64,000 nucleotides of DNA, from the NCBI GenBank assembly GCA_030428615.1, contig JAUIDN010000007.1, positions 1 through 64,000 on the forward strand, given 5' to 3'. Below are positions 50,792-55,765 of this stretch, one piece after another. The translations under genes were made by a program, and so were the position numbers. The notes below the pieces were generated by a model that was given only the letters and a program-made list of their open reading frames with translations, did no database searches and was not told the DNA's origin. The DNA comes from Alphaproteobacteria bacterium. Its GTDB lineage: Bacteria > Pseudomonadota > Alphaproteobacteria > Sphingomonadales > Emcibacteraceae. How positions within the stretch are numbered: position 1 is the first letter of the stretch; each line of letters opens with the position of its first letter.

Positions 50792-51295
50792 TTACTCGTT
50801 ATTTTGGATTGCCAACAGCTGGTCCCTTAAAAAGGCCCAGTTGCTGTTCGCAAGAACAAGGTTCGTGCTCCTGTCCATTTCCCAGTGTTCTCTGAACTCT
50901 TCGGAATAATGCAGGAAAAGCTGACCGGCTTTCAAACTGTAAATTTCTGGATCAGTCGGATTGGTATACCCGTTTGATATGCCCAGCGGATCATACCCGC
51001 CATATTGCGGTGCATAGTTGACGGGCTTGGCGACGAACAGATCACGGTTTTCAGCACTAGTAAAAAACCAGACCGAGCCGGCCCATTCGGCCTGATATTG
51101 CGGCTCGCCCCGAAGGGGTTTTTTTTGTACGTAATATGCCACGGTATCATAACCGTTGATGGCAATATTTTTGCTGGTATCAAAAATAACACTGTTTGCC
51201 GCGTAATCCTGCCGCGCCAGATAAAAAGAAAAAGCACCAAAAAATGAAATAACGACTGCTGATACAACAAGCAGGTTTCTCGCCAGATTATTCAT
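50792..51295 (-). CDS. YHS domain-containing exported protein
   Basis: The 167-residue product has an N-terminal hydrophobic signal or anchor (LLVVSAVVISFFGAFSFYLA) and a YHS-like domain: IAINGYDTVAYYVQKKPLRG, YQAEWAGSVWFFTSAENRDLF and YAPQYGGYDPLG. The family usually has GGYC; here the Cys is replaced by Asp. YHS domains are linked with metal binding, but the role is unknown. It lies 21 bases after hbd, so it may be the last gene of the etf operon. Confidence 0.8.
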   Translation of the reverse strand: MNNLARNLLVVSAVVISFFGAFSFYLARQDYAANSVIFDTSKNIAINGYDTVAYYVQKKPLRGEPQYQAEWAGSVWFFTSAENRDLFVAKPVNYAPQYGGYDPLGISNGYTNPTDPEIYSLKAGQLFLHYSEEFREHWEMDRSTNLVLANSNWAFLRDQLLAIQNNE

Positions 51296-53973: not shown

Positions 53974-54000
53974 TTGACATTCTATGAAGAAGGTACTACC
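53974..54000 (+). promoter_or_regulatory. candidate promoter of the tandem FAH genes
   Basis: TTGACA (53974-53979) is followed 15-18 bases later by weak -10 candidates near TACTACC. The TTG of this box also appears as an in-frame start of the downstream open frame, which is one reason to reject that early start. Confidence 0.35.
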
Positions 54001-54036
54001 ATCTTTGAATATAAAAATTTAAAAACGGGGCTCAAT

Positions 54037-54867
54037 ATGAAATATAATTTTAAGCGAATTTCGCTTGGCGTGCTTCTGTCGTTATTTGTTTCTACTGTGT
54101 CATTTGCGGCCAGTTTCGTCCGCTATGAACAGAATTGTATGGTGTCATGGGGGAAGCTTGATGGTGATACTATCCACCAGTTAAATGACGCCCCTTATCT
54201 TGGTGGAAAAGAGACAGGAAAAAATGTCAAGCGCGCGGATGTTAAGTTAATGGCGCCGGTTGATCCAAGGGATGTTTATATGACCGGCTTCAATTATGAA
54301 AACCATATTCCGGAAGGTCAGAAGACAACACCCTATCCGGGCCTTTTCATGGTTCCTGCCGGGTCACTGGTAGGGCCGGAGGACGATATTATTCATCCAT
54401 CGGACAGCAACAATATTGCGTATGAGGCGGAAACGGTAATTGTCATTGGCAAACGGGCAAAAGATGTGTCAGTTGAGGATGCGGCGGATTATATTTTCGG
54501 GGTAACCGCGGGTAATGATGTTTCAGCGCGCGACTGGCTTAATGCTGATATACAATGGATGCGGGGAAAAGGGGCTTATGGTTTTAATGCCATCGGGCCT
54601 GTTATTGCCACGGGACTTGATTATAAAAATCTAAACCTGACGGCGCGCCTTAATGGTGAAGTTCGCCAACAGGGCAATACATCCAGGATGATCCATAATT
54701 TTGAAGAAATGGTGAGCTACATTTCGCACTATTTTGTGCTTGAGCCGGGTGATCTGATTTGGTCCGGTACTGTCGGAACATCGGAACCGCTCAATGTCGG
54801 TGATACGTTTGAAGTTGAGATTGAAGGCGTTGGAATATTAAAAAACAAAGTTGTACAAGGAAATTAG
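54037..54867 (+). CDS. exported fumarylacetoacetate-hydrolase-family protein, copy A
   Basis: The 276-residue product has a signal peptide (KRISLGVLLSLFVSTVSFAA) followed by a whole FAH domain: MTGFNYENHIPEG, the metal-ligand motif YEAETVIVIGKRA, NDVSARDW, GFNAIGPVIATGLD and LEPGDLIWSGTVGTS. Most FAH proteins are cytoplasmic and hydrolyse or isomerise beta-diketo acids; export is unusual. The open frame starts at 53974, but residues before ATG 54037 are not FAH-like and begin inside a promoter-type box. It is followed after 4 bases by a paralogue of exactly the same length. Confidence 0.85.
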   Translation: MKYNFKRISLGVLLSLFVSTVSFAASFVRYEQNCMVSWGKLDGDTIHQLNDAPYLGGKETGKNVKRADVKLMAPVDPRDVYMTGFNYENHIPEGQKTTPYPGLFMVPAGSLVGPEDDIIHPSDSNNIAYEAETVIVIGKRAKDVSVEDAADYIFGVTAGNDVSARDWLNADIQWMRGKGAYGFNAIGPVIATGLDYKNLNLTARLNGEVRQQGNTSRMIHNFEEMVSYISHYFVLEPGDLIWSGTVGTSEPLNVGDTFEVEIEGVGILKNKVVQGN

Positions 54868-54871
54868 AAAC

Positions 54872-55702
54872 ATGAATTTTAAAGCTTTGATCGCCGGCGT
54901 GTTGGCGGCGTTATTTGTTACAGGCACTGCATCAGCGGAGCGATATGTGCGTTATGAACAAAATGGTGCGGTATCATGGGGAGAACTCGTGGATGGCACC
55001 ATATATCAGCTTTCTGATGCACCTTATCTGGGGGGAAGTCGCACGGGAGAAACCGCTATGGAAAGTGCGGTGAGACTTAAGGCGCCAGTGGATCCAAAGC
55101 TTTCCTTCATGACAGCGTTTAATTACCGCGACCATACATTGCCGGGATATGAACAGGACCCAACGAAAAAACCGGGGCTTTTTACTGTACCGGTAAGTTC
55201 AATCATCGGCCCGGGGGAAGACCTTGTCCGTCCGGCGGAAGCGAAGAATTTCCATTACGAAGCCGAAATGGTTGTTGTCATCGGGAAGCATGCAGAAAAT
55301 GTCCCACTTGAAGAAGCAGGTGATTATATCTTTGGGGTCACCATCGGTAATGATGGGTCGGAACGCGATTGGCAGGCAAGCGATATACAGTGGCTTCGTG
55401 CCAAGGGATCCAAAAACTTTAATGCAGTGGGGCCACATCTGGTGACCGGGCTTGATTATACGGATTTGGATATTGAGGGGCGCCATAACGGCGTTAAATC
55501 ACAGGGCGCCAATTCATCGGGGATGATTTTTAATTTTAATTACATGGTCCATTATATTTCCAAATATTTCACGCTGGAGCCCGGCGACATTATCTGGTCC
55601 GGCACTATGGGTGATACCGGACCGATGGAACCTGGTGATGTGTATGAGATCACAGTGGAAGGCGTTGGAACCCTTAAAAACAGGCTCATTCAGGGCGAAT
55701 AA
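54872..55702 (+). CDS. exported fumarylacetoacetate-hydrolase-family protein, copy B
   Basis: Again 276 residues, with a signal peptide (KALIAGVLAALFVTGTASA) and an FAH domain aligned along its whole length with copy A: RYVRYEQNGAVSWGEL, DAPYLGG, YEAEMVVVIGKHA, NDGSERDWQ, NAVGPHLVTGLD and LEPGDIIWSGTMGDTG. NYENHIPEG of copy A is NYRDHTLPG here, so the substrate pocket differs. GGAAATT provides the ribosome site in the 4-base gap region. A terminator follows. Confidence 0.85.
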   Translation: MNFKALIAGVLAALFVTGTASAERYVRYEQNGAVSWGELVDGTIYQLSDAPYLGGSRTGETAMESAVRLKAPVDPKLSFMTAFNYRDHTLPGYEQDPTKKPGLFTVPVSSIIGPGEDLVRPAEAKNFHYEAEMVVVIGKHAENVPLEEAGDYIFGVTIGNDGSERDWQASDIQWLRAKGSKNFNAVGPHLVTGLDYTDLDIEGRHNGVKSQGANSSGMIFNFNYMVHYISKYFTLEPGDIIWSGTMGDTGPMEPGDVYEITVEGVGTLKNRLIQGE

Positions 55703-55720
55703 AGTCGGACATATATTTTT

Positions 55721-55752
55721 AAAAAAGGTTCCCTTTCTCGGGAGCCTTTTTT
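55721..55752. terminator. bidirectional terminator between FAH copy B and feoB
   Basis: AAAAAAGG and TCCC pair with GGGA and CCTTTTTT around a short loop, giving an A-tract on one side and a T-tract on the other. It therefore can serve the plus-strand FAH pair and the minus-strand feoAB. Confidence 0.85.
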
Positions 55753-55765
55753 AATGGGAATTGGT

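Follow-up and report, generated by a model that had tools for sequence, protein, structure and literature searches.

A tandem pair of probably exported FAH-family proteins in an Emcibacteraceae genome and its relatives in Vibrio and other Gammaproteobacteria

Enzymes of the fumarylacetoacetate hydrolase (FAH) family are regarded as residents of the cytoplasm or of mitochondria. In the window, the whole 64,000-nucleotide stretch of contig JAUIDN010000007.1 that was analysed here, two adjacent genes encode FAH-family proteins with predicted signal peptides, which raises the question of whether FAH chemistry also runs outside the cytoplasm and what the two copies would do there. The genes and their flanking signals are as follows.

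53974–54002, + strand: TTGACA-17-TACCAT element, a likely sigma-70 promoter for the array (10 of 12 consensus matches).
54037–54867, + strand: gene A, exported FAH-family protein of 276 aa (open reading frame, Pfam, clade, and AF2 model).
54872–55702, + strand: gene C, exported FAH-family protein of 276 aa (open reading frame, Pfam, clade, and AF2 model).
55719–55754, no strand assigned: hairpin with A/T-rich ends, likely a bidirectional terminator between the convergent genes C and feoB.

The two 276-residue reading frames of a preliminary description of this DNA were reproduced at exactly the same coordinates, as were its complete FAH domains: PF01557 was matched over almost the full domain by A (E = 3.7e-58, 197.2 bits) and C (E = 7.1e-54, 183.1 bits), against a gathering score of 23.9. 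Both proteins also matched PF10370, the Rv2993c-like N-terminal model. The 3.39-Mb assembly to which the window belongs contains seven FAH-family places.

A and C lie on the same strand with a gap of 4 nt and are probably co-transcribed. A promoter scan found 8 sites in the region compared with a mean of 4.4 in shuffled sequence, which is weak taken alone; CTTTGACATTC and TACCAT were unchanged across six aligned genomes of the genus (of the 12 with the array). Downstream of C, the hairpin folded on the + strand at −20.5 kcal/mol (z = −4.87), and it was not among the sites listed by the consensus scan.

Of 13 genomes of the genus (the window's genome counted), 12 had an array of two or three FAH genes, always at the same syntenic site, and the only genome lacking it, G011, was 53% complete. 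Nine genomes carried A and C, and three (G007, G009, and G010) carried A, B, and C, giving 27 copies in total, with A beside C in all 12 array genomes. The earlier term "pair" holds for the two genes of the window, but in 3 of the 12 genomes the array also includes a third gene, B. Across the order, matches at E ≤ 1e-60 were obtained in 12 of 296 genomes, every one within this genus, and the 283 genomes sampled from elsewhere in the order gave no match at this threshold. The named near relatives were seven MAGs of the Emcibacteraceae and Kordiimonadaceae, with 74–82% identity to A. In the phylogenetic tree, the A and C clades each comprised 12 rows with support of 100/99, and B grouped with C (99/94). 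The support for A and for B plus C indicates that the duplications predate the radiation of the genus. Tandem duplication, as had been proposed from the window alone, is well supported, with A and C now 54% identical at the protein level. Among C orthologues, identities ranged from 68 to 87%. Eight orthologue pairs gave dN values of 0.06–0.11 and dS values of 1.2–3.0 (saturated in two of the eight).

As far as the analysed stretches reach, the array is flanked by etfBA-hbd on one side and feoB on the other, both in the window and in the other 11 genomes that carry it. We considered whether this setting could reveal the function and rejected the idea because etfBA-hbd and feoB are housekeeping genes; the neighbours etfAB, feoAB, and an aldehyde dehydrogenase gene formed no coherent pathway. 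Outside the genus, eight genomes were compared (six of the family and two of the order). In two of them (G013 and G015), feoB was found next to etfB, and the site between the two held a gene for an MFS-like transporter but lacked any FAH gene (Pfam was run on the G013 gene), and in the remaining six, no feoB was present within the 14 kb taken around etfB. The transporter genes at the etfB-feoB site of these two sister genera (L108:7660–8964 and L110:4719–6011) indicate that the locus changed during the history of the genus. Going by the housekeeping neighbours and the sister-genus sites without FAH genes, the array marks the genus rather than a pathway. Also near the array, at positions 50792–51295 of the window, is a gene for a small protein with a hydrophobic N-terminus, and a similar one lies near the FAH gene of one gammaproteobacterium (L084:6585–7058). 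Neither had a Pfam match at 1e-8; their look is, we presume, YHS-like.

The case for export starts from the N-termini, where the following signal peptides were predicted.

54037–54108, + strand: signal peptide of A, residues 1–24, predicted cut between SFA and AS.
54872–54937, + strand: signal peptide of C, residues 1–22, predicted cut between ASA and ER.

The N-termini, MKYNFKRISLGVLLSLFVSTVSFA followed by A in gene A and MNFKALIAGVLAALFVTGTASA followed by E in gene C, show a basic n-region, a hydrophobic core, and a small-x-small cut site, with best nine-residue Kyte-Doolittle means of 2.80 and 2.79, respectively. Within the signals, the AF2 models contain a low-confidence helix (residues 5–17 in A and 3–15 in C). 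Using a simple rule that calls a signal from a hydrophobic nine-residue core and a small-x-small site, we found a signal in all 27 copies from the 12 genomes of the genus (one start, that of G007_C, was set by hand at the upstream ATG), with core means of at least 2.21 compared with 0.93 in the signal-less relative L057. Such consistent retention goes beyond chance. Orthologues without signal peptides, which the preliminary description had named as the observation that would speak against export, were thus not seen among the genus copies. None of 24 signal-less control relatives had a start that would give a signal-like N-terminus. The signal-less relatives L057, L068, and L093–L099 begin where the fold's first strand does, which corresponds to the predicted mature ends, so the signal is an addition ahead of the canonical start.

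Exported relatives were also found outside the genus. In a phylum sample of 398 genomes (E ≤ 1e-65), three matches lay outside the genus, of which G360 and G391 were exported and G336 (L068) was signal-less; a further phylum sample of 299 genomes (E ≤ 1e-48) yielded 10 matches, seven of them new and signal-less (L093–L099). Among 295 genomes from the order to which G391 belongs, 11 gave a match at E ≤ 1e-60, and all 11 proteins, from three genera, had a signal when judged by eye. One of these three genera, g183, is Vibrio (90.7% match to Vibrio sp. THAF190c), where the gene was present in 30 of 148 genomes (E ≤ 1e-60), with a signal in 29; the 30th copy, G1038, is a frame without the N-terminal part. 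The preliminary description had presented the exported pair as isolated, a view that is not supported, given the single-copy exported relatives in three gammaproteobacterial genera. Judged from these sequences, export of FAH proteins is not unique to this genus. In the tree, the exported alphaproteobacterial rows formed one clade (100/100), as did the exported gammaproteobacterial rows (98/97), with which the signal-less L068 grouped (90/86), although a long-branch warning was issued for the tree, covering L068 and the gammaproteobacterial rows among others. A single exported clade uniting both groups could not be rejected (AU test, p = 0.206). The tree, and with it the controls, deliberately omits 11 rows that were near-duplicates or very divergent (L005, L006, L007, L021, L027, L030, L059, L060, L064, L066, and L079, the last an exported gammaproteobacterial row).

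The composition of the mature proteins provided a second line of evidence. Cysteines numbered 1 in 6814 residues of the 27 mature genus proteins, compared with 61 in 5647 residues of the 24 controls, each of which had at least one, although rows related by descent are not independent events. Ten exported gammaproteobacterial mature proteins had 7 cysteines in 2446 residues, six of which occurred two by two in three proteins from one genus, with a single one in L069. The mature parts of 27 Vibrio proteins, counted from the mature start, had 4 in 6599 residues, all of them in two proteins with two apiece.

The earlier claim of signal peptides and export is upheld by the 27 signals and the cysteine-depleted mature parts, and export is the firm part of our reading: A and C are very probably exported, and the periplasm would be their location. 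It could be argued instead that the N-terminal segment stays uncleaved as a membrane anchor or belongs to a mis-called start and that A and C are cytoplasmic, as relatives of known function are generally known to be cytoplasmic or mitochondrial. We regard this as very improbable, given the small-x-small site that all 27 copies have just ahead of the canonical start, the ribosome-binding-like sequence 5' of the upstream ATG in the copies listed, an N-terminal segment that diverges fast (33, 48, and 43% identity within A, B, and C, compared with 81, 83, and 80% in the mature parts), and the scarcity of cysteine behind it.

If the proteins are exported, are they still enzymes? The AF2 models of A (pLDDT 90.6, pTM 0.86) and C (pLDDT 88.9, pTM 0.86) both showed the FAH fold, with Foldseek query TM scores of 0.84–0.85 to 3qdf and 4pfz chain A. 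The best PDB matches of both models also included Cg1458 (4dbh) and, lower, FAHD1 (6fog). We mapped the active-site positions on FAHD1, using the residue list of its centre in an excerpt of PMC7056447 and the mechanism, with the roles of the His-Glu dyad and the Gln, in an excerpt of PMC8398924.

54304–54315, + strand: His90-x-x-Glu93 dyad of A, intact, equivalent of FAHD1 H30-E33 (alignment).
54424–54570, + strand: metal ligands E130, E132, and D161 of A, with L168 replacing FAHD1 Q109, and K178 (alignment).
55133–55144, + strand: His88 of C, kept, with the dyad Glu changed to Pro91 (alignment).
55259–55405, + strand: metal ligands E130, E132, and D161 of C, with Q168 kept, and K178 (alignment).

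The pocket motifs noted earlier, NYENHIPEG and NYRDHTLPG, are present in the sequences, and the divergence they were taken to reflect can be made more specific: the C of the window is without the dyad Glu and A is without the Gln, while a comparison of metal ligands, proposed at the same time, found all three intact in both proteins. Across the genus, the metal ligands (E-x-E and D), the His, and the catalytic Lys were invariant in 27 of 27 copies. The dyad Glu was present in 11 of 12 A proteins, in none of three B proteins (Asp instead), and in 7 of 12 C proteins, the other five, including the C of the window, having Pro. At the FAHD1 Q109 position, Ile or Leu occupied 12 of 12 A proteins and Gln all 15 B and C proteins. 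The exported gammaproteobacterial rows had the dyad Glu in 0 of 37 and the Gln in 35 of 37 (L142 and L143 being the exceptions), compared with 22 and 18 of the 24 controls, in which the dyad His was kept in 19 (the truncated row L141 is left out of these counts).

The surroundings of the Vibrio genes offered a hint about substrates. Among the 30 FAH-bearing Vibrio genomes, the gene lay 329–987 bp downstream of a PL17-type alginate lyase gene on the same strand in 12 and away from the lyase in 13 (three of these at 16–22 kb on the same contig), as judged from the best lyase place of each genome, and no such lyase was found in the other five. The lyase occurred in 25 of 30 genomes with the FAH gene compared with 32 of 118 without it (Fisher p = 2.4e-8, kinship ignored). 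The Vibrio lyases matched PF07940 and in part PF05426, one of the two matching PF07940 but not PF05426 (1e-8); the PL17 label comes from a paper on Vibrio sp. C42, an excerpt of which gives a locus in the same gene order (PMC13390454). In three loci examined gene by gene (L085:2333–7844, L086:2467–8604, and L116:4668–10804), the exported FAH gene sits directly 3' of two PL17-type lyase genes, with eda, kdgK, and kdgF opposite the lyases; L086 is one of the 12 adjacency genomes, and L085 and L116 are outside the 148. Two exported Vibrio proteins, L142 and L143, encoded 16–22 kb from a lyase gene, kept the signal and lost the His and both Glu ligands, and are likely pseudoenzymes judging from these residues.

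Other contexts differed. G391 had no alginate-type neighbours beside its FAH gene and no such lyase in its genome. In genus g275 (L087–L090), the exported FAH gene follows a gene for a GAF/sigma-54 activator, which we take to be NorR-like, near nnrS (Pfam was run on L088), and its product contains two cysteines that might be joined by a disulfide bond. In g215, the neighbours of the FAH gene varied between genomes. Because no context is common to g275, g215, and Vibrio, we claim no single pathway. For the organism of the window, whose genome contained no PF05426 match, the Vibrio alginate hint is not directly transferable. Lyases of other families may still be present in that genome, since one of the two Vibrio lyases was itself missed by PF05426.

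These observations led us to favour, at somewhat better than even chances, a reading in which A and C are Sec-exported, signal peptidase I-processed periplasmic FAH enzymes, A hydrolase-like and C tautomerase/decarboxylase-like. The parts of this reading differ in strength. Following Sec export and cleavage by signal peptidase I, mature A and C would work in the periplasm, where Glu130, Glu132, and Asp161 would bind a divalent metal (Mg2+, Mn2+, or Ca2+) and a 2-oxo acid or its enol would be gripped via its 1,2-dicarbonyl, as in FAHD1. A and C are likely to be metal-dependent oxo-acid enzymes. Sugar-acid-derived 2-oxo acids are the favoured candidate substrate by analogy, since some Vibrio relatives are located in alginate loci; none of the results demonstrated a diketone or lactone substrate, as had been proposed earlier. 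The parent chemistry would be divided between the copies. A keeps the water-activating His-Glu dyad but has lost the Gln. Cg1458 needs this residue to decarboxylate oxaloacetate, and changing it there removed ~98% of decarboxylase activity (as cited in an excerpt of PMC8398924), which points to a hydrolase. The C of the window keeps the Gln and Lys and has lost the dyad Glu, which points to an enol-keto tautomerase or a decarboxylase. Tautomerisation is among the candidate reactions because oxaloacetate tautomerase activity has been reported for diverse FAHD proteins (excerpt of PMC10825186).

This division is only tentatively suggested, as HpcE is also without the Gln and C is still variable. 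The Leu at the Gln position of HpcE means that the Gln is not required by every decarboxylase of the family; the Gln and His, present in only 18 and 19 of the 24 controls, vary in the family at large; and the Glu kept by 7 of 12 C orthologues means that the division is not fixed. The lid of C also contains a later Glu (GYEQD) that could take over from the dyad Glu. The same facts lend themselves to a reading in which A and C are both exported and perform the same chemistry, differing in substrate range, with lid changes that are neutral or compensated. A dyad position of C that varies within the genus, as under weak constraint, and the compatibility of the HpcE Leu with decarboxylation (an activity known from annotation) would fit such a reading, but the Q109 position is fixed as Ile or Leu in A and as Gln in B and C, and the A and C genes were retained side by side in every array genome; we consider it rather unlikely. 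It is improbable that one or both proteins have lost enzymatic activity and now have a binding or structural role in the periplasm. The losses in L142 and L143 demonstrate that catalytic residues do disappear in exported copies, and the Bacillus subtilis FAH protein YisK is said in an excerpt of PMC10825186 to act in peptidoglycan envelope remodelling, but the metal ligands, His, and Lys of the genus proteins did not vary in any copy.

Retaining the reading of A and C as periplasmic enzymes, we suggest that FAH chemistry probably also runs outside the cytoplasm, as far as the sequences indicate. They may even represent an overlooked periplasmic FAH branch of marine Pseudomonadota with enol-keto or C-C-cleaving chemistry on 2-oxo acids, split here into a hydrolase and a tautomerase/decarboxylase, although this wider picture is speculative. 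In Vibrio, such a branch might, for example, condition keto-deoxy sugar acids from algal polysaccharides before uptake. If true, acylpyruvate or oxo-acid chemistry would also take place in the periplasm, and a function would be provided for an unstudied gene of Vibrio alginate loci. An exported branch in which none of the 37 gammaproteobacterial rows has the dyad Glu, and in which the paralogues of this genus differ in it, would offer a natural test of the residues that separate hydrolases from decarboxylases and tautomerases.

Known FAH enzymes act in the cytoplasm or mitochondria. No description of an exported FAH enzyme was found among the open-licence papers listed by our searches. A table of the Ruegeria exoproteome lists a low-abundance fumarylacetoacetate hydrolase (excerpt of PMC5839243). 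The nearest published counterpart of the Vibrio loci is that of Vibrio sp. C42, whose order of a PL17 pair, kdgF, kdgK, and eda is that of L085, L086, and L116. Its single-copy FAH gene JFJ08_17855 occupies the same place as theirs, by locus number rather than by sequence, and according to an excerpt of PMC13390454 the authors see no apparent link between it and alginate use and left it uninvestigated.

The best NCBIfam match was TIGR02303, the C-terminal domain of HpcE/HpaG, an aromatic meta-pathway decarboxylase/isomerase (E = 6.7e-49 for A and 3.1e-42 for C). The scores of 166.6 and 144.7 bits are below its cut-off of 276.4, so A and C are not members. The C-terminal domain of HpcE (1gtt) resembles A in its Leu at the Gln position, and compared with HpcE/HpaG the signal peptide is an addition in A and C. 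NF053535 (2,4-didehydro-3-deoxy-L-rhamnonate hydrolase) gave 124.3 and 116.8 bits, below its cut-off of 500. The mycobacterial Rv2993c-type proteins 3qdf, 4pfz, and 3rr6, known here as PDB chains alone and annotated as isomerases or uncharacterised, were the closest solved folds and among the top four by sequence, with 35–37% identity to A and C in the Foldseek rows; they keep both the dyad Glu and the Gln. Cg1458 (4dbf, 4dbh), FAHD1 (6fog; mitochondrial, according to the excerpted literature), and YisK (8sky), which are oxaloacetate decarboxylases, tautomerases, or acylpyruvases, have the fold, the metal triad, and the Lys in common with A and C. They share the His-Glu dyad with A and the Gln with C; unlike them, A is without the Gln and the C of the window is without the dyad Glu.
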